A stretch of DNA of 64,000 bases from Clostridia bacterium. Lineage in GTDB: Bacteria; Bacillota; Clostridia; Oscillospirales; Acutalibacteraceae. The notes beneath the pieces were generated by a model. It was given only the letters and a program-made list of their open reading frames with translations. It searched no databases and was not told the DNA's origin. This document shows positions 13,855 to 33,077 of this stretch, one piece after another (position 1 is the first letter of the stretch; every line of letters starts with the position of its first letter). Both the position numbers and the translations under genes were made by a program. The stretch lies in the NCBI GenBank assembly GCA_017516745.1, contig JAFXBF010000014.1, positions 124,001-188,000 of the forward strand. The letters are read 5' to 3'.

Positions 13855-15921
13855 ATGGATCCCAAGTATGAAGCATTATTTACCCCGTGGAAAATAGGCA
13901 ACTGCGAAATCAAGAACAGAATCGTTATGTGCCCCATGGGCGGTACATCTCTGTTCGGTTGGTTTGAGCTTGGCGGCTGTCACTTTGACAAGGAAGCTGC
14001 AAAGCTTTTCATCGAAAGAGCTAACAACAATGTCGGTCTTATCATCCCCGGTATCGCTCCTATCCGTGATACCTTCTGGGGCAAGTGGCTCTGGCAGAAC
14101 CCCAAGATGTTCGAAGAACTCAAGGAGTTTATGGATGAAATCCATAAGACAGGCGCAAAGCTGTTCGTTCAGCTTACAGCCGGTATGGGCCGTTCCTGGG
14201 CTATTACCGACCTTATTGCTCCTCTCCACAAGAACAAGTTTACACGTACACTCATAAAGCCCCTTCTTGATACCTCACACGAGCTTGCTTCTCCCAGCCC
14301 CCAGCCCTCACGCTGGGCACACGATATTATCTGCCCCGAAATGACAAAGGAGCAGATTCACGAAATCATCGAGGCATTTGCAAAGACTGCAAAGCTCTGC
14401 CGTGACGCAGGCGTTGACGGTGTTGAAGTTCACGCTGTTCACGAGGGCTACCTCCTTGACCAGTTTGCTATTGAATTCTTCAACAAGCGTACCGACGAAT
14501 ACGGCGGAAGCTTTGAAAACAGATACCGTTTCGCAGCAGAGATTGTAAAGGCAATCAAGGAAAGCTGCGGCAGCGATTATCCCGTATCACTTCGTTACTC
14601 GGTAGAGTCCAAGATGAAGGGCTTCTGCGAGGGTGCAATGCCCGGCGAAGAGTACACAGAGGTCGGCCGTGCAATGGCTGAATCCGAAAGGGCTGCAAAG
14701 TACCTTCAGGATGCAGGCTACGATATGCTCAACGCCGACAACGGTACTTACGACTCCTGGTACTGGGCACATCCGCCTATGTATATGCCCCAGAACTGTA
14801 ACCTTGACGATGTTGCTCACATTAAAGAGTTTGTTGATATTCCCGTTGTCTGCGCAGGCCGTATGGAGCCCGATGTCGGTGCAAAGGCTGTTGCGGAAGG
14901 CAAGATTGACGGTGTCGGCGTAGCACGTCAGTTCCTTACAGACCCTGAATGGATTACAAAGATTATTGAAGACAGACTTGAGGAAATCAAGCCCTGTATC
15001 TGCTGCCACAGCGGCTGCTTCAACTTCTCATCTTCAAAGGGTCACGCAAATACTCAGGATCTCTTCGACACAATGGGTCTTGCACGCTGTGCACTCAACC
15101 CCAAGACCATGCAGTCCAAGAAGTATAAGATTGTTCCCGCAAAGAAGAAAAAGAATATCGCTGTTATCGGCGGCGGTATCGGCGGTATGGAGGTTGCTCT
15201 CGTTGCCGCACAGCGTGGCCACACAGTAACTCTTTACGAAAAGTCCGGCGTTCTCGGCGGTGTATTCATTGCCGCTGCTGCTCCCTCCTTCAAGGAGAAG
15301 GACCGTGACCTTATTGCCTGGTACAACCGTGAGATTATGAAGTACCCCTCAATCACAGTCAAGCTCAACACAGAGGTTAAGGACGTTGCTTCCCTCGGTG
15401 CTGACGAGGTTGTTGTTGCAACAGGCTCTGTTGCAAACAGAATTCCCGTCAAGGGCGCAAACGAGTACGGCATTCAGGCTGTTGAATACCTTCTGGGCGA
15501 AAAGCAGGTCGGCGAAAACGTTGTTATCGTCGGCGGCGGTCTCACAGGCTGCGAAATCGCTTACGATCTTTTCCTTCAGGGCAAGAAGCCTGTCATTGTC
15601 GAAATGATGGATGACCTTATCACAACACCCGGTGTTGCTCTTGCAAACACAAGCTTCCTTCGTGACTTCTTCAAGGCAAACAAGGTTCCCGTTTACCTTG
15701 AGTCCAAGACAACGGAAATCCGCAAGGACGGCGTTACAATCGCAACAAAGGACGGCAAGACAATTGACGTTCCTGCTGACAGCGTAATCCTTTCCGTCGG
15801 CTACAAGCCTGCTCCCGTTGCTGAAAAGAGCAAGCACGTTCACATCGTCGGCGATGCTTCCAAGGTCGGTAACCTCCGTACGGTTATCTGGCAGGCCTGG
15901 GACGTCGCTATGAAACTCTGA
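13855..15921 (+). CDS. BaiCD/FldZ-like NADH:flavin oxidoreductase (old yellow enzyme plus NAD(P)H-binding domains)
   Basis: A 688-residue iron-sulfur flavoenzyme. Residues 1 to about 370 are an old-yellow-enzyme TIM barrel (VEVHAVHEGYLLDQF and EYGGSFENRYRF are the usual signatures). A 4Fe-4S site follows (Cys381 or 384, Cys388 and Cys412). The C-terminal half has two dinucleotide folds (GGGIGGMEVALV and VGGGLTGCEIAYD). Relatives reduce activated C=C bonds: 2,4-dienoyl-CoA, cinnamate (FldZ) and 3-oxo-delta4 steroids (BaiCD). The substrate cannot be told here. The downstream aconitase X genes suggest a dehydrate-then-reduce route for a hydroxy acid. Lysine codons are overwhelmingly AAG, as in the 27-32.8 kb operon, which hints at high expression. 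Confidence 0.9.
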   Translation: MDPKYEALFTPWKIGNCEIKNRIVMCPMGGTSLFGWFELGGCHFDKEAAKLFIERANNNVGLIIPGIAPIRDTFWGKWLWQNPKMFEELKEFMDEIHKTGAKLFVQLTAGMGRSWAITDLIAPLHKNKFTRTLIKPLLDTSHELASPSPQPSRWAHDIICPEMTKEQIHEIIEAFAKTAKLCRDAGVDGVEVHAVHEGYLLDQFAIEFFNKRTDEYGGSFENRYRFAAEIVKAIKESCGSDYPVSLRYSVESKMKGFCEGAMPGEEYTEVGRAMAESERAAKYLQDAGYDMLNADNGTYDSWYWAHPPMYMPQNCNLDDVAHIKEFVDIPVVCAGRMEPDVGAKAVAEGKIDGVGVARQFLTDPEWITKIIEDRLEEIKPCICCHSGCFNFSSSKGHANTQDLFDTMGLARCALNPKTMQSKKYKIVPAKKKKNIAVIGGGIGGMEVALVAAQRGHTVTLYEKSGVLGGVFIAAAAPSFKEKDRDLIAWYNREIMKYPSITVKLNTEVKDVASLGADEVVVATGSVANRIPVKGANEYGIQAVEYLLGEKQVGENVVIVGGGLTGCEIAYDLFLQGKKPVIVEMMDDLITTPGVALANTSFLRDFFKANKVPVYLESKTTEIRKDGVTIATKDGKTIDVPADSVILSVGYKPAPVAEKSKHVHIVGDASKVGNLRTVIWQAWDVAMKL

Positions 15922-15969
15922 TAAAGGGCACCTTATGCAAACCCGTAAAACGGTGCTGATAATTAAGTA

Positions 15970-15998
15970 TTGAATTTTTGTTCATAATATGTTAAAAT
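15970..15998 (+). promoter_or_regulatory. candidate promoter for micropeptide 1 and aconitase X
   Basis: TTGAAT at 15970-15975, 17-base spacer, TAAAAT at 15993-15998. An 11-base inverted repeat (15992-16002 and 16034-16044) starts in the -10 region and ends just before the AAGGAGG site of micropeptide 1. It could be an operator or a leader hairpin that hides the translation start. Confidence 0.5.
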
Positions 15999-16065
15999 TT
16001 TGCTGCGGAAAGTTTTCCGTGTGAATAAAGAAACAAAATTTTAATAAGAAGGAGGACAGAACACT

Positions 16066-16176
16066 ATGTCACTTGCAGAAATCATCAACGGTCTTTTCGA
16101 TTTCCTTGAGAAGCTTCAGAATTTCCTTTTCAACTTCGGCGACATTGCACAGAAGTTCTTTGACATGCTCCCGTAA
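16066..16176 (+). CDS. micropeptide 1 (36 residues, amphipathic), unknown function
   Basis: A 36-codon open frame from ATG to TAA with a perfect AAGGAGG ribosome binding site 10 bases upstream. It is rich in Leu, Phe and Ile with spaced acidic residues (begins MSLAEIINGLFDFLEKLQ and ends FFDMLP), so it should form a strongly amphipathic helix. No signal peptide or cysteine is present. Codon choice (CTT, TTC, AAG, GGC) resembles the strongly expressed flanking genes. It lies between the flavin reductase and aconitase X genes and is followed by a stem-loop. It could be a membrane-active or complex-stabilising peptide, or a leader peptide for acnX. I do not recognise a family. Confidence 0.65.
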   Translation: MSLAEIINGLFDFLEKLQNFLFNFGDIAQKFFDMLP

Positions 16177-16185
16177 AAACCCAAA

Positions 16186-16215
16186 GCCACACCACCTCTC
16201 ACGGGGCGGTGTGGC
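16186..16215 (+). terminator. GC-rich stem-loop after micropeptide 1
   Basis: Arms 16186-16196 and 16205-16215 pair with one mismatch around an 8-base loop. There is no T-run, so it may be a partial terminator or a processing/stabilising hairpin that sets different levels for the micropeptide and the aconitase X genes about 70 bases further on. Confidence 0.5.
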
Positions 16216-16286
16216 GCTTACTGTTTATTGTGCCGCTACGGCTTTTTATATGTTAATTGTATTCCTGATGAAAGGGGAAAATAAAT

Positions 16287-17573
16287 ATGAACTACAAAAT
16301 GCAGCTCACGCCCGATGAGATAGAAATTCTCAACGGCGCAAAGGGCGAAACCATGGCAAAGGTTATGAAAACCCTTGTTATGTACGGCGATGCTTTCGGC
16401 GCAACCAAGATGGTGCCCGTTACAAGCAAGAAGGGTCACCTTGTTACCAGCTTCGGCCTCAAGGTTATGAGCCCTGTTTACGACCTTATGGATCAGCTTA
16501 TTGCAGGCGGTGCTCTTTCGGGTCAGAAATTCTCCGTTGACCCCAAGCCCCTTGACCCGAAGGTTCCTGCAAACTTCCTTCAGAAGCTTATCTTCAACAA
16601 GTTTATGTACTCCAAGCAGGATGAGTATGATGAGCAGCTTCGCAAGCTCGGCCTTATCGACGACAAGTCCTACACCTGTACCTGCTATATGGACGAGGTC
16701 GGCAACATCCCCGTAAAGGGCGATGTTCTCTCCTGGGCAGAGTCCTCCGCAGTTGTTTACGCTAACTCCGTTATCGGCGCAAGATGTAACCGTAACTCCG
16801 GTATCATTGAGCTGTTCGGCTCAATCATCGGCAAGGTTCCCTACTTCGGCCTTGTAACGGACGAGGGCAGAAAGGCAACATGGATTGTCGAAGTCAAGAC
16901 AACAAAGAAGCCCGAGGCACAGATTCTCGGCTCCGCCATCGGTATGAAGGTTATGGAGGATGTTCCTTACATCAAGGGTCTCAACCAGTGGATTGGCACT
17001 CAGCTTGACGGCGACACCAAGGCTTACCTCAAGGACTTCGGTGCTGCTACAGCTTCCAACGGTGCTGTCGGCCTTTACCACATCGAAAACCTCACTCCCG
17101 AAGCAGTTGAGCAGGGCGAGAGCCTTATTGCAGAGGGTGCACAGGTTTATGTTATTGATGATGCAGAGCTCGCAAGAGTTCAGGCTAATTACCCCGTAAT
17201 GTGGAAGGACAAGAGCGCAACACCCAAGCTTTGCTTTGTCGGCTGCCCCCACCTTTCACACGCACAGCTTATCGAGTGGACAGACAACGTTGTTGCAGGC
17301 CTCAAGAAGAACGGCCTCAAGAAGGTTTCCATCCCCACCGTATTCACAGCTGCTCCCGCTGTTGTTGAAGAGTTCAACAAGACAGCAAAGGCTAAGGAGC
17401 TTGCAGCTACAGGCGTTATCCTCAGCTACATCTGTCCGCTGATGTATATGAATAACCCGCTTTGCAAGAAGATGCCTGTAATCACAAACTCCAACAAGCT
17501 CCGCACATACACAACTTCACGTTACTACAGAAGTGAAGAAATTCTCGATATCATCACAAAGGAGGCAAAGTAA
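16287..17573 (+). CDS. aconitase X, large (catalytic) subunit
   Basis: A 428-residue protein of the aconitase X catalytic family (formerly DUF521). Aconitase X enzymes are iron-sulfur dehydratases. Characterised members are cis-3-hydroxy-L-proline dehydratase in bacteria and a mevalonate 5-phosphate dehydratase in archaea. Candidate cluster cysteines lie in YTCTCYMDE, GARCNRNSG, VGCPHLS and SYICPLMYMNN. It has the usual length of the separate large subunit. The small subunit follows after one base. A GAAAGGGGA ribosome binding site precedes the ATG. The substrate is not deducible. Lack of proline-pathway genes nearby argues against assigning the hydroxyproline activity without testing. Confidence 0.9.
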   Translation: MNYKMQLTPDEIEILNGAKGETMAKVMKTLVMYGDAFGATKMVPVTSKKGHLVTSFGLKVMSPVYDLMDQLIAGGALSGQKFSVDPKPLDPKVPANFLQKLIFNKFMYSKQDEYDEQLRKLGLIDDKSYTCTCYMDEVGNIPVKGDVLSWAESSAVVYANSVIGARCNRNSGIIELFGSIIGKVPYFGLVTDEGRKATWIVEVKTTKKPEAQILGSAIGMKVMEDVPYIKGLNQWIGTQLDGDTKAYLKDFGAATASNGAVGLYHIENLTPEAVEQGESLIAEGAQVYVIDDAELARVQANYPVMWKDKSATPKLCFVGCPHLSHAQLIEWTDNVVAGLKKNGLKKVSIPTVFTAAPAVVEEFNKTAKAKELAATGVILSYICPLMYMNNPLCKKMPVITNSNKLRTYTTSRYYRSEEILDIITKEAK

Positions 17574-17574
17574 G

Positions 17575-18015
17575 ATGAAACAGTTTAAGGGACGTCCCGT
17601 AGTTGCAGGCACTTGCTCTGCTCCCGCCCTCGTTTCTCACGGCGGTTTCAACACACTCGCTTCCTTCCAGAACGCACTTCAGTTCGGCGACAAGCAGGCA
17701 AAGTGCGGCGACCAGAACAATGCAGACCTCTACCAGAAGCCCATGGTCGGCACAGCTCTCTGCCTGCCCCAGACTATCGGCTCCACAACAGGCGGTATGG
17801 TTCTCTACTGCGCAAAGGTTATGGAGAGAAACCCTGCTTGTATGCTCTTCTCCGAGCATATTGACTCACTTGCTTGCGCAGGTGCAGTTCTCGGCGCAGT
17901 ATGGACAGATTCTCCCATGCCCGTTATCGACTGCCTCGGCGATGAGTTCCTCAACTACGTCAAGGACGGTATGAAGATTACCGTTGCAGAAGACGGCACA
18001 GTTACAGTTGAATAA
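17575..18015 (+). CDS. aconitase X, small (swivel) subunit
   Basis: A 146-residue protein of the aconitase X small-subunit family (formerly DUF126), the swivel domain that closes over the active site. Visible family features are the N-terminal FKGRPVVAGTCSAPAL, the FGDKQAKCGDQNN segment and GSTTGGMVLYCAKV. I chose the ATG one base after the large-subunit stop, preceded by AAAGGAGG in the end of the large-subunit gene. An upstream in-frame ATG inside that gene is unlikely. A terminator follows. Confidence 0.9.
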   Translation: MKQFKGRPVVAGTCSAPALVSHGGFNTLASFQNALQFGDKQAKCGDQNNADLYQKPMVGTALCLPQTIGSTTGGMVLYCAKVMERNPACMLFSEHIDSLACAGAVLGAVWTDSPMPVIDCLGDEFLNYVKDGMKITVAEDGTVTVE

Positions 18016-26838: not shown

Positions 26839-26873
26839 AAAAAAGTTCAGCGGTTTTGCCGCCGAACTTTTTT
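26839..26873 (-). terminator. intrinsic terminator of the SCP2/transketolase operon
   Basis: GTTCAGCGG and CCGCCGAAC pair (one mismatch) around TTTTG. Runs of A and T flank both sides, so it can work on both strands. It immediately follows the stop of the SDR gene. Confidence 0.85.
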
Positions 26874-26874
26874 G

Positions 26875-27894
26875 TTATTCGCCCTTCATTTCAAGGAGCT
26901 TGACCTTACCGTCGTAGGAAGCCTGGCTGACCTTGATTGAATCGAAGATAGCTGCTCTGATATCGTCCTCTGTTGCGCCGAGCTCAACGGAGTACTTGCG
27001 GTCGATAAACAGGTTGAGAGCCATAATATCTGCAAGTCCGTCAACATCGATACCGCTTTCAATGCCCTTTTCGGCATATTCCTTCTTAACGCCGCCGAGA
27101 CCCATACGCATCATCCAGGGAGCAACGCTGATAACCTTGCGGTTTGCGCCCATACCACGTGCTTCATAAACTATCTTGAGGAATTCCTTCCAGGTCTGGT
27201 TGTACATACTGATGGGCCATGCTGTTGCGCCCTTGGACTTTTCAGCCGCACCGACAATAACCTCACCGACCTGACGGACTGTGAGCATAGCTGTACCGCC
27301 GCCGGGGTACATTGTGAAGGGAAGCTTATCCATCATCTTAATCTGCTCGATAAGGATAACCCAAACGGGCTTTCTGCCGGGCTGTGTGCCGAAGATGTAG
27401 GGAAGCTCGAGAACAGCAACATCAAAGTTTTCATCAGCAAAGGAGAAGGCAACCTCTTCCTGGTCGATTCTGCTGCGGATGTAGGGGTGCTTTTCTGTGA
27501 GCTTCATATCGGGACGCTCCTTTGCAAGGTATGCAAAGTAGGAGCCGAGGATAACGGCGTTCTTCATTCCGATTTCCTTACATATGGGGAGAAGTCTCTT
27601 AAGGGGAGCAATGTTGCACTTGTAGTAAAGGTCGTAAACAGGTGCGGGAGCTTCAACTCTTTCGTCAACGCCTGCGGCGAAAACAAAGCAGTCGCAGCCT
27701 GTCATCATTTCCTTGATTTCCTCATCGCTCTTTTCGTAGAGGTTGCAAAGCTCAATTTCCATCTCTTCGGGGATGGGAGCTCCTTCGGGGAGAGGGGGAA
27801 GAGCAACGCTCTTTACCTGATGGCCTCTCTCAATGAAAATTCTTGCGGCCTCACAGCCCAGAAGACCTGTGCCGCCAATCATAAATACTTTCAT
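26875..27894 (-). CDS. NAD-dependent epimerase/dehydratase family (extended SDR) protein
   Basis: A 339-residue Rossmann-fold oxidoreductase, last gene of the operon. The nucleotide-binding motif is MIGGTGLLGCEAARIF. The family active-site pair Tyr-x3-Lys seems altered to PYIRSR, that is Arg in place of Lys, with an upstream LGSY. The segment ELPYIFGTQPGRKPVW is typical of NAD(P)-dependent sugar epimerases and related sterol-type dehydrogenases. The substrate is unknown. Lysine codons are mainly AAG, as in the other operon genes. The Lys-to-Arg change may alter or abolish redox chemistry. Confidence 0.82.
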   Translation of the reverse strand: MKVFMIGGTGLLGCEAARIFIERGHQVKSVALPPLPEGAPIPEEMEIELCNLYEKSDEEIKEMMTGCDCFVFAAGVDERVEAPAPVYDLYYKCNIAPLKRLLPICKEIGMKNAVILGSYFAYLAKERPDMKLTEKHPYIRSRIDQEEVAFSFADENFDVAVLELPYIFGTQPGRKPVWVILIEQIKMMDKLPFTMYPGGGTAMLTVRQVGEVIVGAAEKSKGATAWPISMYNQTWKEFLKIVYEARGMGANRKVISVAPWMMRMGLGGVKKEYAEKGIESGIDVDGLADIMALNLFIDRKYSVELGATEDDIRAAIFDSIKVSQASYDGKVKLLEMKGE

Positions 27895-27976
27895 CGCAGT
27901 GAAGTTTCCTTTCGTGGAATATTCTTTTTAACATCAAGCAGAGCAGTAGGTTGTACTGCTCTGCAAATTAGTTTTA

Positions 27977-28786
27977 TTAACCCTGTGCGTATGCGCCGAC
28001 CTGCATCATAAAGTCGCCGAGCTGTGCACCGAATTCGGGAGCACCGTCCATAATCAGCTTGCCTGCCTTAACGGATTCAAGCATATCAGCTGTCTGCATA
28101 AGAATGCCCAGTGCGCTGTCGAAATTGTCGAAACGCATTGTGAAGAACGGCATGGCTCTCTTGTATTCGCCACGGCCTGCTCTTGACTTACCTGCCTTGA
28201 TGCGGATGTATGCGCTGACCTCGGGATAGCCGTTGACAGCCCATGAGTAAACACGGTCGGGGCTCTTTGAGGTCCAGTCGTGAATAGCATCGTGGCCGTT
28301 CTTGTTAAGTGTGCTGATACCGCTGGAAAGCAGGTAGAAGTAGCACTTGACAAGCAGCTTCTTTGTTTCCTCGTCCTCGGGTGCTTCCTTAGCTGTGAGG
28401 AGGGAGGACATCTTGAGCAGAACCATCATAAAGGATGCAAAAGCGCCTGTGTGCTTTGCAATACCCTTCATTTTGGGGATGTACTGCGGCTTAATCTGAC
28501 CCTTGAAGAAAGCGTTGAGTGCCTCGATGCTCTTGAATTCAAGCTCAACGTGTGCGTTGTTGGTCAGCTTATCTGTGTGAACAATCCACTCGCCGTTGTT
28601 TACAACAAGATGTGTGCCAACCTTGCCTTCGGGAACGTCGGGGCACAGCGCACTTATCTGATAGATTGTGTGAGCGTGCTCAAACTTCTTTTTAAGGTTG
28701 GGAACATCGTTTGCGATGACCTTGATGAGCGGGATTGCAGCACAGAGGAAAATTTTATTGGTAAAAACGTCGTCTCTTGTGGACAT
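27977..28786 (-). CDS. tandem SCP2-like (sterol carrier) domain protein, operon paralogue 2
   Basis: A 269-residue soluble protein. Two stretches look like SCP2-type lipid-binding folds: about residues 55-110 (GTHLVVNNGEWIVHTDK, then AHVELEFKSIEALNAFFKGQ) and about 190-260 (VSAYIRIKAGKS, FTMRFDNFDSALGILMQTA, then KLIMDGAPEFGAQLGDFM). The same layout occurs in the first gene of the operon, so the two are probably distant paralogues. SCP2 domains bind hydrophobic ligands such as sterols and acyl chains. There are no membrane segments. The ATG is chosen because AAAGGA lies 9 bases upstream; an in-frame TTG three codons earlier overlaps that site. Confidence 0.65.
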   Translation of the reverse strand: MSTRDDVFTNKIFLCAAIPLIKVIANDVPNLKKKFEHAHTIYQISALCPDVPEGKVGTHLVVNNGEWIVHTDKLTNNAHVELEFKSIEALNAFFKGQIKPQYIPKMKGIAKHTGAFASFMMVLLKMSSLLTAKEAPEDEETKKLLVKCYFYLLSSGISTLNKNGHDAIHDWTSKSPDRVYSWAVNGYPEVSAYIRIKAGKSRAGRGEYKRAMPFFTMRFDNFDSALGILMQTADMLESVKAGKLIMDGAPEFGAQLGDFMMQVGAYAQG

Positions 28787-28824
28787 AAAAATCAATCCTT
28801 TCTGCCGTGAAGTTTAATTTTGTA

Positions 28825-29835
28825 TTAAACTTCGTCGTCCCAATCGTCGTCAAGCTCAAAGTCTGCGTTCATTGCTTCACGAACGGCGGCGATGATGCCG
28901 TTGGAGTCAATGCCGAGTGAGGACATAATGTCTTCGTGCAGACCGATGGGTGCAAACTGATCCTGAATACCAAGGCGCTTGAATGCACAGCCCTTACCTG
29001 TTTCGGCAATGACCTCTGCAACTGCTGCGCCGAGACCGCCGATAACGGAGTGGTCTTCAACAGTGATGATACGGCGTGTGTCCATAATAGCCTTTACAAC
29101 AGCTTCCTTATCAAGGGGCTTGATTGTATGCATATTGATAACACGAACCTTAAGACCGTCTGCGTTCTCAAGGAAGTTGGCAGCCTGAAGTGCCTGGAAA
29201 GCACAGGAACCGCAAGCGATAACCGTGATGTCTGTACCTTCCTTAAGCTGAACAGCCTTGCCTACCTCGAAGCCGTAGTCTGTCGTTTCGTAGAGAACAC
29301 GGTCGAAGCCACGGTTGATACGGATATAGTAGGGGCCGGGGTTCTCGTATGCTGCACGGACTGCGTTGACTGTCTCAAGACCGTCAGCAGGGCAGATAAG
29401 AGTGATGTTGGGCATTGAGCGTACAACAGCCATATCGCAGATTGCGTGGTGTGTTGAGCCTGCCTGGCCGAAGGATGTACCTGCGTGTGTAGCAATAATC
29501 TTTGCGTTAACGTTCTGGTAGCAGATATCTGTGTGGAGCTGGTCTGCACTTCTGAGTGAAGCGAAAACGGAGAAGGTGGAAAGGAAGGGAACAAGACCTG
29601 CCCTTGCCATACCTGCTGCAACGCCGAACATATTCTGCTCTGCGATACCTACGTTGAAGTATCTGTCCGGGAAAGCTTCGCCGAACATACCGATTTTTGT
29701 TGATTTACCAAGGTCAGCCGTGAGAGCGACAACATCGTCGTGCTCCTGACCGAGTTCTACGAGCGTTTTGCCGTAGTATTCAGCTGTTGAGAAAGCTGTA
29801 GATTCAGTAGCTGTGTAAGTAAGTCCACCTGCCAT
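28825..29835 (-). CDS. transketolase, C-terminal subunit (pyrimidine-binding and C domains)
   Basis: A 336-residue split-transketolase subunit: pyrimidine-binding domain (about 10-180, with VVALTADLGKST, FNVGIAEQNMFGVAAGMARAG and the catalytic-site Glu in GIAEQN) and C-terminal domain (about 195-315, IIACGSCAFQALQAA, VRVINMHTIKPLD, ITVEDHSVIGGLGAAV). With the N-terminal subunit it forms a thiamine-diphosphate enzyme that moves two-carbon ketol units. The nearest known split pairs include ordinary transketolases and the DesAB steroid desmolase of Clostridium scindens, so the donor substrate cannot be fixed by sequence reading. It starts 3 bases after the N-subunit stop. Confidence 0.92.
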   Translation of the reverse strand: MAGGLTYTATESTAFSTAEYYGKTLVELGQEHDDVVALTADLGKSTKIGMFGEAFPDRYFNVGIAEQNMFGVAAGMARAGLVPFLSTFSVFASLRSADQLHTDICYQNVNAKIIATHAGTSFGQAGSTHHAICDMAVVRSMPNITLICPADGLETVNAVRAAYENPGPYYIRINRGFDRVLYETTDYGFEVGKAVQLKEGTDITVIACGSCAFQALQAANFLENADGLKVRVINMHTIKPLDKEAVVKAIMDTRRIITVEDHSVIGGLGAAVAEVIAETGKGCAFKRLGIQDQFAPIGLHEDIMSSLGIDSNGIIAAVREAMNADFELDDDWDDEV

Positions 29836-29838
29836 GGC

Positions 29839-30708
29839 TTATGCACCCTCCTTTTCTGCTCTTTCGCAGCGCTTCTTGTAGAACGCCTCGAGGCTCTTCT
29901 TTGCAAGCTCGTACTTTTCTTCGTTAAGTGCGCCGTAGTGCCACTTGTAGTCGTTTTCCATATAGTCAACGCCGCAGCCCTTGACTGTGTTTGCAACAAT
30001 CATAACGGGCTTCTCTGTGTTTTCGTATGCGTAGTCAATAGCTTCGCAAAGCTCCTTGATGTTGTTACCGTCAACCTCGATAACGTGGAAGCCGAAGGAG
30101 CGCCACTTGTCGCAGAAGGGCTCAAGCTTCATAACTTCTTCTGTCGGGCCGTCAATCATGCACTGGTTACGGTCAACAAAAGAGATAACGTTTGTGATGT
30201 TGTAGTGAGCAATTGTCATTGCAGCTTCCCAGTTGGAGCCTTCGTCGCATTCGCCGTCGCCGAGGATGCAGAAGGTCTTGTAATCCTTACCCTTGATTCT
30301 TGCTGCGAGAGCTGTACCTGCAGCAATTGAAAGGCCGTGGCCGAGAGAGCCTGTGGAGGCGTCTGCGCCCTTAACCTTGTTGGAGTCAAGGTGAATACCC
30401 ATCTTGGAGTTGGAAAGGTTGAAGGTCTTGAGCTGCTCGGGGTTATTGTAGCCGTAGTCGCAAAGGACTGCTGCATAAGCAACGCCTGCGTGACCCTTAC
30501 TGAGGATAAAACGGTCTCTGTCCTCCCAGTTGGGGTCTTCTTTGTCGAGGTGCATATACTTGTGGTAGAGAACAGTCATCATATCCATGACGCTCATACC
30601 GCCGCCGATGTGAGCGGAGCCTGCCCAGAAGGTTGTATCGAGGCAGAGTTTACGCAGCTCATGAGCCTTTTTTTCGAGTGCAAGCCACTCTTGTTTGGTC
30701 AATGGCAT
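29839..30708 (-). CDS. transketolase, N-terminal (thiamine diphosphate-binding) subunit
   Basis: A 289-residue subunit with the thiamine diphosphate and metal motif GDGECDEGSNWEAAM ending in VDRNQ, the HIGGGMSVMDMM region and SLGHGLSIAAGTALAARIKG. Length fits the separate N-terminal halves common in Clostridia. It is between the aminotransferase and the C-terminal subunit in the operon. An AGGAGG ribosome binding site precedes its ATG. Confidence 0.92.
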   Translation of the reverse strand: MPLTKQEWLALEKKAHELRKLCLDTTFWAGSAHIGGGMSVMDMMTVLYHKYMHLDKEDPNWEDRDRFILSKGHAGVAYAAVLCDYGYNNPEQLKTFNLSNSKMGIHLDSNKVKGADASTGSLGHGLSIAAGTALAARIKGKDYKTFCILGDGECDEGSNWEAAMTIAHYNITNVISFVDRNQCMIDGPTEEVMKLEPFCDKWRSFGFHVIEVDGNNIKELCEAIDYAYENTEKPVMIVANTVKGCGVDYMENDYKWHYGALNEEKYELAKKSLEAFYKKRCERAEKEGA

Positions 30709-30739
30709 TTTGTTTTCCTCCTGTATTAAAAATTTTCAA

Positions 30740-32002
30740 TTAAAAGAGTTCGGGGTGATTTGCGGCAACAACCTTGAATGCTTCGTCAGCAACCTCGAGT
30801 GTGAGGTTGATGTCCTTGTCGCTCATTGCGGCATTCATGAAGTGGTTGTGGTGGCTGGAGAAGAAGATACCTCTCTTGACACACTCTGCAACCCACTCCT
30901 GGTGGAGCATCATGGAGTTGTCGTTTGCAATTCTGAGGTAGAAGAGTGCAGGCTCACCGGAAACGACAAGGTTGAAGCCGTTGTTTTCGGCGGCAGCCTT
31001 GAGGCCGTTTGTGAGCATGAGACCCTTTTCACGGAACAGCTTGGGAGTGTCAAGTTTCTTCATCTTTTCGATACAGGCCATACCTGCTGCGAAGGGAACG
31101 GAGCTGAGCCAGTAGCTGCCGGTGTAGCTGAGTGAGCTGACAGCGCTCTTGAGGGACTCCTTACCGCAAAGGCAGGAAACGTTCCAGCCGTTTGCAATGG
31201 CCTTACAGAAGCAGATAAGGTCAGCCTCAAAGCCGTAGTAGTGGTCGGAGCCTGCAAGGTCAAGACGGAAGCCGCAGCGAACGTCATCAACGATAAGAAC
31301 GATGCCCTTGCGTGTGCAGAGCTCACGAACCTTCTGCCAGTAGCCCTCTGCAGGTGTTTCGTTGTCCTTGTAGTTGCCGTGCATATAGGGTGTGGAAATG
31401 AAAGCGGCGATTTCGCCTTCGTTTTCTGCAACTAACTTTTCGAGTGCCTCGAAATCGTTCCAGTCAACATAGAGGTTGTTTGCAACATCCTCGGGGATAA
31501 CGCCGGGGTAGTCAACCTTCTGTGTCCAGGGAGAAACGCCGTGATAGAAGCCGTTAACGAAGATGATCTTCTTGCGGTGTGTGGCTGCACGTGCAGTCAT
31601 GATAGCGGCTGTTGTAACGTCGTTACCGTTCTTTGCGAAGAATGCCCAGTCTGCACAGTTGACTGTGTCAACCATAAGCTCTGCAAAATCAACGGTGATT
31701 CTGCTGGGAGAGGTTGTGCAGTTGCCCATCTTGGACTGTGCAATAGCTGCTGCATCGACATCCTTGTCGCAGTAGCCGAGAACGTTGGGGCCGTAGGCAC
31801 ACATATAGTCGATGTACTTGTTGCCGTCAACATCCCAGAAGTATGCGCCCTTTGCCTTGTCGCCGAAAAGCGGCCAGTCGCAAACGGGGATGAAGTTACC
31901 CTCTGCCGGGCCGAGGTGGCCGTAAACACCTGAGGGGATTACCTTTGTTGCTCTGTCGAAGAGCTCACGGCTTACTTTATGTTCGTAAATGGGAAAACTC
32001 AT
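30740..32002 (-). CDS. class III PLP-dependent aminotransferase (glutamate-1-semialdehyde aminomutase-like)
   Basis: A 420-residue fold-type I aminotransferase. Cofactor residues are Lys267 (CFCKAIANGW) for the Schiff base and Asp239 (LIVDDVRCGFR) for the pyridine nitrogen. FWDVDGNKYIDYMCAYGPNVLGY and KNGNDVTTAAIMTARAAT are typical of the HemL-like branch, which includes GSA aminomutase and many sugar or amino-aldehyde transaminases. The second active-site acid is Asp240 where many relatives have Glu. No haem-pathway genes are nearby, so a dedicated substrate of this operon is more likely than glutamate 1-semialdehyde. Confidence 0.87.
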   Translation of the reverse strand: MSFPIYEHKVSRELFDRATKVIPSGVYGHLGPAEGNFIPVCDWPLFGDKAKGAYFWDVDGNKYIDYMCAYGPNVLGYCDKDVDAAAIAQSKMGNCTTSPSRITVDFAELMVDTVNCADWAFFAKNGNDVTTAAIMTARAATHRKKIIFVNGFYHGVSPWTQKVDYPGVIPEDVANNLYVDWNDFEALEKLVAENEGEIAAFISTPYMHGNYKDNETPAEGYWQKVRELCTRKGIVLIVDDVRCGFRLDLAGSDHYYGFEADLICFCKAIANGWNVSCLCGKESLKSAVSSLSYTGSYWLSSVPFAAGMACIEKMKKLDTPKLFREKGLMLTNGLKAAAENNGFNLVVSGEPALFYLRIANDNSMMLHQEWVAECVKRGIFFSSHHNHFMNAAMSDKDINLTLEVADEAFKVVAANHPELF

Positions 32003-32017
32003 TGTCGTGCACCTCCG

Positions 32018-32794
32018 TTATGCTAAGTACAGAGCTACTCTGTCGAGTATTCTGTTAAGGTTATCGATCATATTGATCATGCCCTTCATCGTGATTGTAC
32101 CTTCACCGATGCAGGCAACGGCATTGACCTTGCCGTCGAAAAGGTCACGTGCCAGGTCGAGGTTTGCAAATTCCATAGCGGCACGGGGATTTTCGCTTGC
32201 CTTCTTGATTGTGACAAGGCGGTGATCCTTTACACGGATAGTTGCCGCAACACAGTCCTTGATGCCGAAAGCGATTTCGCCGTCGGGAATAAGGTGGGCG
32301 GAGAACTTACCGATCTGGTCGTTGTTTGCAATCTGTGCAAGAGCAACGGCGATTGTGTAGAACATCAGCTTTGTGCTGGTCTCAAAGAACTCTCTGTCCT
32401 CAAGGTCCTTCGGGTCGGGACGCATAAGAGCGGAAAGTCTGTCAGTAAGCGGTGTGAAGACCTTGAGCAGGAACTTGATGTGCTGGAAGCCCTTTGAGGG
32501 GATGGGTGTTACCGTGCCGTCGATAAGACCGTTGAACTTATCAACTGAGCTGAACGGAAGCTTAACGTCACAGTTTGTGCAGCCCTGCTCCATGCGGCAG
32601 CGGCCGTTTTTGAAATAAAGTGTGGCCTTGGGGCCGTCGGCAACGTCGAAGCCAATTGAAATGGGCTTCTGGTTTGAAAGCATTGCGGAAGCGACGGGGT
32701 CGATTTCGCAAAGGTTTTCAAGCGTACCGAGAACGGCGTACATGTTTATGTAGGCCATTGTCTTTGAGTCTGTCAATGTGATATGATCTGTCAA
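32018..32794 (-). CDS. tandem SCP2-like (sterol carrier) domain protein, operon paralogue 1
   Basis: A 258-residue soluble protein, first gene of the operon. An SCP2-like pattern is clear at about residues 46-105 (ISIGFDVADGPKATLYFKNG, then DVKLPFSSVDKFNGLIDG) and again at about 180-255 (AATIRVKDHRLVTIKK, AMEFANLDLARDLFDGKV, then GTITMKGMINMIDN). SCP2 domains bind lipidic ligands, so a hydrophobic or acylated pathway intermediate is suggested. A Cys pair (GCTNC) lies between strands of the first domain. The start is a TTG with a perfect AAGGAGG site 8 bases upstream. Confidence 0.7.
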   Translation of the reverse strand: MTDHITLTDSKTMAYINMYAVLGTLENLCEIDPVASAMLSNQKPISIGFDVADGPKATLYFKNGRCRMEQGCTNCDVKLPFSSVDKFNGLIDGTVTPIPSKGFQHIKFLLKVFTPLTDRLSALMRPDPKDLEDREFFETSTKLMFYTIAVALAQIANNDQIGKFSAHLIPDGEIAFGIKDCVAATIRVKDHRLVTIKKASENPRAAMEFANLDLARDLFDGKVNAVACIGEGTITMKGMINMIDNLNRILDRVALYLA

Positions 32795-32796
32795 AG

Positions 32797-32896
32797 CACA
32801 TTCCTCCTTAGATAGGCGAGAAACTTGAATTTGCCCGCAGGCACTGCGCCTATATTAAATCACCTTATTTTAACAAAATATTATAATACTTGTCAA
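32797..32896 (-). promoter_or_regulatory. promoter and structured leader of the SCP2/transketolase operon
   Basis: Minus strand: TTGACA at 32896-32891, 18-base spacer, TAAAAT at 32872-32867. The leader of about 65 bases contains a hairpin closed by ATAGGCG (32853-32847) and CGCCTAT (32818-32812) with an inner TGCC/GGCA pairing, ending three bases before AAGGAGG. It could regulate translation of the first gene. The rest of the 317-base gap up to the ECF gene is AT-rich and holds the divergent ECF promoter; nothing else is seen. Confidence 0.6.
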
Positions 32897-33048: not shown

Positions 33049-33077
33049 TTGACAAGCATTTTTTTAAGGATTATAAT
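33049..33077 (+). promoter_or_regulatory. promoter of the ECF S-component gene
   Basis: TTGACA at 33049-33054, 17-base spacer, TATAAT at 33072-33077. The predicted start leaves a leader of only about 28 bases, too short for a riboswitch. Confidence 0.85.

Follow-up and report, generated by a model that had tools for sequence, protein, structure and literature searches.

A conserved operon of tandem SCP2-fold proteins, a FumI-like aminotransferase and a split transketolase in Clostridia: a possible pathway for long-chain amino-alcohols

A 64,000-nucleotide stretch from the genome of a Clostridia bacterium of the family Acutalibacteraceae (contig JAFXBF010000014.1, positions 124,001 to 188,000; hereafter, the window) carries an operon in which genes for two SCP2-fold proteins (scpA and scpB) enclose those for a class III aminotransferase (AT) and for the two halves of a split transketolase (tkN and tkC). 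Its enzymes are of known kinds, and together they probably represent a route to or from long-chain amino-alcohols that has not yet been described. More specifically, we propose, at a probability of about 45%, a transketolase-transaminase pathway that links a long-chain aldehyde, a 1,3-dihydroxy-2-ketone and a sphingoid-like 2-amino-1,3-diol on SCP2 carriers. An earlier note on this DNA, made from the letters of the sequence, had stated that no pathway of this composition was known, and our survey of the open-licence literature likewise found no paper on this gene combination.

A conserved five-gene unit and its proteins

Our comparison covers the best 80 of 115 ScpB relatives found by searching bacterial and archaeal genomes; since these loci were picked through scpB, they do not tell how often the other core genes occur without it. 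The complete set scpA-AT-tkN-tkC-scpB was found, in this order, in 63 of the 80 loci, contig ends cut the core in 14, and tkN-tkC-scpB with other genes upstream was seen in 3 (L018, L037 and L044, judged at the locus only). The largest gap inside the 63 complete cores is 247 nt. A sixth gene, which encodes a short-chain dehydrogenase/reductase (SDR) and follows scpB in the window, was present in only 6 loci. The conserved unit is therefore made up of five genes. Because the SDR gene is so rare and a hairpin lies between it and scpB, it is a local addition, either a lineage-specific passenger or a tailoring enzyme; it had no solved relative at E <= 0.001. The earlier note had described a six-gene operon with the order SCP2-like, aminotransferase, transketolase N, transketolase C, SCP2-like and SDR. 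The order is as it stated (six minus-strand open reading frames [ORFs], with Pfam matches for AT, tkN and tkC), and the first five genes stand up as a conserved core, but the SDR gene falls outside it.

The gene neighbourhood, whose conservation the note had proposed to examine, is also kept well beyond close relatives. The scpB profile matched 29 of 147 relatives and 5 of 398 genomes sampled from the phylum (own genome counted in both), and the scpA profile matched 14 of 97 genomes of a distant class. In that class, the five genes stand in order in L162-L165, L167-L169 and L109, while L166, L171 and L172 are truncated at contig ends. The L109 carriers share 27-30% identity with their counterparts in the window. 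The five-gene set is thus kept by gut Clostridia and some distant relatives, and many of the named relatives are gut metagenome-assembled genomes (MAGs) by record title. In one genome (G305), the core is split into an scpA-AT locus (L111) and a tkN-tkC-scpB locus (L110), and in the stretch of G031 that was examined (L102) only tkN-tkC-scpB was seen. Given the division in G305 and the 3 of 80 loci with tkN-tkC-scpB only, the data suggest a pairing of scpA with AT and of scpB with the transketolase.

TkN and TkC are encoded by adjacent genes as a PP half and a Pyr + C-terminal half that carry the thiamine diphosphate (ThDP) and catalytic residues, and they form a split transketolase; the solved chain closest to TkC is 6yaj, from the split transketolase of Carboxydothermus hydrogenoformans. 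The genome of the window has another split pair on contig 23, and its contig 27 holds a 627-aa frame resembling DXS. In a TkC search of 39 genomes, operon-type proteins scored at least 571 bits and all other matches at most 302 bits, and an ordinary TkC (275-298 bits) was also present in 14 of the 14 genomes carrying the operon type. The operon enzyme is neither the only nor the housekeeping transketolase, which disposes of a possibility that the earlier note had raised against its own proposal.

We compared pocket residues using E. coli numbering, transferred by spacing and by motifs of the E. coli enzyme. Identical rows and rows shorter than 300 aa (operon-type TkC), 280 aa (ordinary TkC) or 230 aa (TkN) were dropped, and operon-type TkC was delimited at 450 bits, which excludes L166 and L022, both truncated at contig ends, and an unlike pair in L173 (397 bits; G at D469). 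The ordinary-type rows are the 17 distinct ones with locus sequence in the set, a subset of the ordinary matches in the 39 genomes. All 94 distinct operon-type TkC rows keep E411, H461, H473, S385 and R520. At the D469 position they have A (93 of 94) or S (1 of 94), at L466 invariably F (94 of 94), and at R358 mostly A (84, with T in 3, G in 2, K in 2, R in 2 and S in 1), whereas the 17 ordinary-type rows carry D, V and R at these three positions without exception. Operon-type TkN has H66, H100, D155, N185 and H261 in every distinct row and H26 in 95 of 96 (one gap); its R91 position is N in 95 of 96 (one unread), against R in 17 of 17 ordinary chains. Before rows were dropped, the counts were 128 of 129 for D469 to A and 108 of 109 for R91 to N.

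R358, R91 and D469 are contacts of polar and phosphorylated substrates. The operon enzyme resembles a functional transketolase that has lost part of its contacts with polar substrates. According to passages of an engineering study (PMC5073344), substitutions at D469, R520 and S385 redirected E. coli transketolase from phosphorylated aldehydes to non-polar aliphatic ones and, subsequently, to aromatic ones, and replacement of D469 was linked to better R91 access; passages of a second paper (PMC7661550) list R358, S385, D469 and R520 as sites that improve activity on aromatic aldehydes.

The best solved relative of AT is FumI, the aminopentol aminotransferase of Sphingopyxis sp. MTA144 (6hbs; E 4e-88), and the next, a GSAM, follows at 1e-42; in a profile search, the values were 7e-103 for FumI and 6.5e-62 for the next. 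The likely pyridoxal phosphate (PLP) lysine, lysine 267, is invariant in 27 of 27 rows. AT and FumI have in common the stretches YIDYMCAYGPN(L/V)LGY, DDVR(A/C)GFR and TGS(F/Y)WxS(A/S)VP, all of them missing from the GSAM in the same alignment, and the full-length operon aminotransferases compared are 36-43% identical to FumI. By its closest characterised relative, its PLP lysine and its family motifs, AT is a FumI-type class III aminotransferase, with solved-structure relatives and 8 GSAM-like rows as the comparison set. The class III C-6' aminotransferases of aminosugar antibiotics are also among its solved relatives. FumI itself uses pyruvate as the acceptor for the C2 amino group of its substrate, hydrolysed fumonisin B1, which is a long chain of the 2-amino-3-hydroxy type, as set out in passages of PMC2933618.

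The earlier note had called the products of scpA and scpB SCP2-like. Pfam alone does not bear this out in the window, where ScpA scored 17.9 bits for PF02036 against a cut-off of 21.3 and ScpB gave no match, and a Pfam SCP2 search of the whole genome missed both, as sub-threshold proteins would be. The assignment instead comes from predicted folds, profile comparison and other family members, which indicate that ScpA and ScpB are related SCP2-fold proteins. AlphaFold2 (AF2) models had pLDDT values of 90.4 (ScpA) and 91.7 (ScpB), and Foldseek placed SCP2 proteins among the top matches of both (probability 1.00, TM by target about 0.5-0.7), including UbiJ-SCP2, the human MFE-2 SCP2-like domain, an insect SCP2 in complex with a C16 fatty acid, and alkylsulfatases (one with 1-dodecanol), enzymes that end in an SCP2-like domain. 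Profile comparison by hhalign identified ScpA and ScpB as homologous (94.6%), as well as the two halves of ScpA (97.6%), with a weak value for the halves of ScpB (47.4%). At E <= 0.1, PF02036 matched 23 of 41 ScpA members (best 1.5e-5) and 1 of 15 ScpB members; by sequence, neither profile had a convincing solved relative (best E 0.75 and 0.88). We propose that ScpA is a long-chain carrier paired with AT.

The association of transketolase with SCP2 is wider than this operon, since SCP2 genes passing the Pfam cut-off lie near split transketolases in two other loci. One of them, in L170, encodes a 252-aa protein (21.4 bits versus 21.3) on the opposite strand, upstream of the transketolase; the other, in L173, lies directly downstream (57 bits). 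The latter cluster (L173:7304-11283, in the distant genome G275) consists of a second split transketolase pair, the one with G at D469, with this canonical single SCP2 protein after it and a zinc-type alcohol dehydrogenase and an SDR before it, and is possibly a desmolase-like operon with a carrier.

The proposed pathway and its alternatives

In the pathway that we propose, the split transketolase would form (or break) the bond between a two-carbon ketol unit and R-CHO, giving HOCH2-CO-CH(OH)-R, and the FumI-like aminotransferase would interconvert this ketone and HOCH2-CH(NH2)-CH(OH)-R, a sphingoid-type base. ScpB would serve the transketolase and ScpA the aminotransferase by presenting the chain, and the two carriers would keep a long R soluble and pass it along; with an alkyl chain as R, the product would be a sphingoid base. 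Two-carbon transfer and transamination of a hydrophobic, carrier-bound substrate, as the earlier note had put forward, fit the evidence; the identity of the substrate, along with chain length, direction, ketol donor, stereochemistry and the pairing of carriers with enzymes, is what we infer. We consider synthesis the more likely direction, because codon adaptation is strong and genes for transport, hydrolysis or regulation are missing from the core. Breakdown would agree as well with the direction in which FumI is known to work and with the aldehyde enzymes encoded beside L103, L167 and L170.

According to passages of a 2025 paper (PMC12134224), sphingolipid production relies on serine palmitoyltransferase in eukaryotes and in every bacterial producer known so far, and the gene of this enzyme serves as an indicator of production. 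The genome of the window had no match to an alpha-oxoamine synthase model at E <= 0.001; the model was that of BioF, not of serine palmitoyltransferase itself, and control searches with it gave matches in 13 of 14 genomes, above the cut-off in 5. Among the 30 core-gene genomes, 27 had some match at this threshold, and only G304, G450 and G577 exceeded 36 bits. Given the lack of a match in the window's own genome and the 3 of 30 genomes above 36 bits, the known serine palmitoyltransferase route is unlikely in most core-gene genomes. A narrower version of our proposal, to be taken as tentative and on balance rather unlikely, is that Clostridia make sphingoid bases independently of serine palmitoyltransferase, from an aldehyde and a ketol unit, followed by FumI-like transamination to sphinganine or an analogue, with tandem SCP2 proteins holding the chain.

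Several observations weigh against the proposed pathway. The transketolase keeps H461, S385 and R520, which also contact phosphorylated sugars, and with these residues in place a phosphorylated sugar is possible as the second partner. The AT tree was built from 34 of 91 rows: FumI, every sixth close operon row, and the distant and other rows in full. In it, FumI has a very long branch (2.15) and joins the close operon rows with a support of only 81/55, so that its placement is unsure; the outgroup rows were all of one kind, and the tree offers weak support. FumI-like aminotransferases (37-39% identity) also occur on plasmids of Proteobacteria and Actinomycetes, and the 6 of 21 plasmid regions that we opened were of mixed context (ABC transporters, N,N-dimethylformamidase, class II aldolases, a nucleotidyltransferase), with no SCP2 gene annotated in any of the six. 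Since its relatives elsewhere occupy such mixed contexts, resemblance to FumI does not fix the substrate of AT. The flanks of the core vary as well, with no outside ORF family common to more than 11 of 81 loci; of the most frequent such families, two consist of ORFs antisense to core genes. Neither a ceramide synthase nor an acyltransferase nor an aldehyde-forming enzyme was a constant neighbour at the loci, a result that concerns the loci, as no genome-wide search for such genes was made. Aldehyde enzymes adjoin the core in 3 loci only, and the one in L167 is on the opposite strand with one small ORF between. Finally, 3 of 39 other window ORFs reach codon adaptation index (CAI) values of 0.76-0.80, and high CAI is therefore not specific to the operon.

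No ScpA homolog was found on plasmids. The opened plasmid regions held a few lipid- or aldehyde-related genes, namely a lysophospholipid acyltransferase family gene (L189), a GDSL esterase with an aldehyde dehydrogenase (L187) and a ceramidase-N-domain gene (L190). The last of these lies on a haloarchaeal plasmid (L190:5959-11103), where a more distant AT relative (33% identity) is clustered with transporters and this annotated ceramidase N-terminal domain gene. On an Agrobacterium plasmid (L186:3098-8212), a FumI-like aminotransferase and a ThDP dehydrogenase alpha/beta fusion stand two genes apart, which may be another pairing of a ThDP enzyme with a class III aminotransferase.

The alternative that survives best, although we hold it to be unlikely, is catabolic: sphingoid bases from the diet, the host or Bacteroides, or fumonisin-like amines, would be deaminated by AT, and the transketolase would cleave the ketone to a fatty aldehyde and pass the two-carbon unit to a sugar phosphate. 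This cleavage would correspond chemically to the one that DesAB carries out on cortisol, at its dihydroxyacetone side chain. An aldehyde dehydrogenase gene directly follows scpB on the same strand in a genome from another family of the order (L103:5364-6734), and aldehyde:ferredoxin oxidoreductase genes lie near operon-type transketolases in two distant genomes (L167:6380-8269 and L170:13086-14882); TetR-like genes lie just downstream in L107 (by Pfam) and in L104 and L108 (by eye), and the many gut MAGs among the named relatives would agree with this reading. FumI, moreover, runs the deamination with pyruvate (passages of PMC2933618). However, the core lacks a transporter or hydrolase, and its strong codon adaptation suggests constitutive bulk expression. 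We rejected the name fatty-aldehyde enzyme for the L103 gene, whose best match, a benzaldehyde dehydrogenase model, was below its cut-off. Ceramidase co-occurrence was dropped as a discriminator because the matches were mostly partial and there was no comparison set: among the 30 core-gene genomes, 18 had a match at E <= 0.001 and 13 one above the cut-off, with 5 partial matches in the window's own genome (best 38.8 bits versus 32.1) and strong ones in G049, G305 and G580.

A pathway for sugars or lipid-linked sugars is less probable still. Here, the transketolase would make a modified ketose, AT would aminate it, and the SCP2 proteins would hold a polyprenyl-linked or otherwise lipidated acceptor. 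The aminosugar-antibiotic enzymes among the relatives of AT, the retention of S385, H461 and R520, and the epimerase-like SDR of the window are in line with this, as are genes of the MurT/GatD type (lipid II modification) that adjoin scpA in the distant class, recognised by Pfam, one gene each, in L109 (Mur ligase/MurT) and L163 (glutamine amidotransferase domain), and by eye in L162, L165 and L166. Yet almost every row has other residues at the equivalents of R358, R91 and D469, the MurT neighbourhood is confined to one distant class in our data and may be inherited gene order, and no outside gene family recurs in more than 11 of the 81 loci.

Steroid side-chain cleavage of the kind performed by DesAB of Clostridium scindens, with SCP2 proteins as sterol carriers, was a low-confidence suggestion of the earlier note, and we regard it as very improbable. 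A split transketolase pair with an altered pocket, SCP2 folds and gut hosts would agree with it, but an aminotransferase has no role in the desmolase reaction, and AT points to a long-chain 2-amino-3-hydroxy compound. The des operon also includes desC, an alcohol dehydrogenase, and desD, a transporter. No such gene would fit inside the 63 complete cores, and the 81 loci have no constant neighbour (flanking genes were not annotated singly), which places any desC/desD-type partners outside the unit. An ordinary second transketolase with unrelated passengers can be dismissed almost entirely, since split transketolases are indeed common (listed in most of 39 relatives) but the five-gene order is fixed in 63 of 80 loci and recurs in a distant class, the pocket residues differ from the 17 ordinary-type rows, and the bit-score gap is 571 versus 302.

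If the transketolase-transaminase pathway does make bases without serine palmitoyltransferase, a set of Firmicutes from the gut and other anaerobic Firmicutes have escaped notice as producers of bioactive long-chain bases; if it runs in reverse, it is as degraders of such bases that they have done so. It would also provide a natural precedent for the engineered transketolase-transaminase aminodiol route, and, judging from its residues, the operon offers a transketolase family seemingly already adapted to hydrophobic aldehydes.

Gene layout, signals and codon use

The six co-directional ORFs of the window run on the minus strand from 32794 down to 26875 (Table 1). Spacing is tight, as the earlier note had it: the core genes are separated by 15, 31, 3 and 38 nt, and the SDR gene follows scpB after 82 nt.

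Table 1. Features of the operon in the window
Feature	Coordinates	Strand	Basis
Putative promoter, TTGACA-18 nt-TAAAAT, upstream of scpA	32867..32896	-	11/12 consensus match (sigma-70-like)
scpA, predicted tandem SCP2-fold protein, 258 aa, TTG start	32018..32794	-	AF2 + Foldseek + hhalign
AT, class III (FumI-like) PLP aminotransferase, 420 aa	30740..32002	-	PF00202 E 6e-38
tkN, transketolase ThDP-binding half, 289 aa	29839..30708	-	PF00456 E 2.5e-48
tkC, transketolase Pyr + C-terminal half, 336 aa	28825..29835	-	PF02779/PF02780
scpB, second predicted tandem SCP2-fold protein, 269 aa, last gene of conserved core	27977..28786	-	AF2 + Foldseek
11-pair hairpin between scpB and SDR gene, at conserved-core boundary; candidate terminator or attenuator	27938..27964	-	hairpin scan
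Extended SDR/epimerase-like gene	26875..27894	-	PF01370 E 1.2e-7
Inverted repeat with T tracts on both sides, likely terminator	about 26840..26872	-	read from sequence

The note had further claimed one promoter with a structured leader and one terminator; of these, the structured leader is not supported. The promoter-like site is a consensus match only, one of 7 such sites in the window against 5.5 expected from shuffling; the match alone is no proof of promoter function, and the site is best called putative. The leader, in turn, folds no better than shuffled sequences (z = +0.73; 152 of 200 shuffles fold equally well or better), and at the gathering threshold Rfam yielded only one tRNA in the window. 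The inverted repeat at the operon end was recovered by the terminator scan as its inner stem alone (26850-26862, + strand), the hairpin after scpB comes in addition to it, and terminator-like sites are not commoner in the window than in shuffles (7 versus 6.7). Upstream of the operon, a 12/12 sigma-70-like promoter (33049-33077, +) heads a divergent gene.

The statement that lysine is nearly always encoded by AAG is borne out by 121 of 135 codons in the six genes, compared with 57% in 39 other window ORFs and 252 of 296 codons in ribosomal-region genes (n = 18). With those 18 genes of the genome's own ribosomal region as the reference, the six genes have CAI values of 0.72-0.81, the housekeeping transketolase 0.67-0.68, and the 39 other ORFs (mechanical ORFs of at least 150 aa, not curated genes) a mean of 0.54. 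Elsewhere in the window (13855-18012), a flavoenzyme resembling old yellow enzyme/dienoyl-CoA reductase and a two-gene pair resembling aconitase X, all named by eye, are at about the level of the operon (CAI 0.72-0.80).

Additional genes were observed beside individual loci. Transhydrogenase-like genes lie beside L102 (824-4479), L111 (5914-8841) and L164 (8300-10815), two of which have a partial core; a subunit in L164 was recognised by Pfam (AlaDh_PNT) and the remaining ones by eye. A second, GSAM-like class III aminotransferase is encoded upstream on the opposite strand in L057, L059, L061, L062, L064, L065, L069 and L105, with a class II aldolase beside it in L057 (Pfam) and L105 (by eye). 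Moreover, an acyltransferase-like gene (AATase) follows scpB by ~50 bp on the same strand in the closely related loci L057 (10844-12139), L059, L061, L062 and L064; in L057, the only one scored, it is under the Pfam cut-off.

Comparison with known systems

The split transketolase of C. hydrogenoformans (6yaj) has the two-chain architecture and catalytic residues of TkN/TkC, but it keeps the R358 and D469 equivalents that are replaced in the operon TkC. The SCP2 fold of ScpA and ScpB is that of lipid-holding proteins such as UbiJ, which has one SCP2 domain, holds a lipid intermediate and serves ubiquinone; ScpA and ScpB, in contrast, appear to carry two domains and are below the Pfam cut-off in the window. 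In biocatalysis, an aldehyde and a ketol are converted to a dihydroxyketone and then to a 2-amino-1,3-diol, the same order of steps as in the proposed pathway. Such engineered combinations of transketolase and transaminase are man-made, whereas the operon pathway would be natural and carrier-assisted.

DesAB, the steroid-17,20-desmolase of C. scindens, which we liken to the operon pair by description only, is also an N + C transketolase pair, one that splits a two-carbon unit off a hydrophobic skeleton. The passages of the des operon literature that we drew on mention neither an aminotransferase nor SCP2, and the operon described here has both. FumI (6hbs, 6hbv) has the class III fold and the motif stretches of AT in common with it. 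It acts in fumonisin degradation and is encoded in the fum gene cluster (passages of PMC2933618), whereas AT is locked to a transketolase and SCP2 carriers. Lastly, synthesis based on serine palmitoyltransferase would yield the same class of 2-amino-1,3-diol long-chain base; that route uses an alpha-oxoamine synthase, as described in passages of PMC11334938 and PMC12134224, whereas the genome carrying the operon lacks a BioF-model match.

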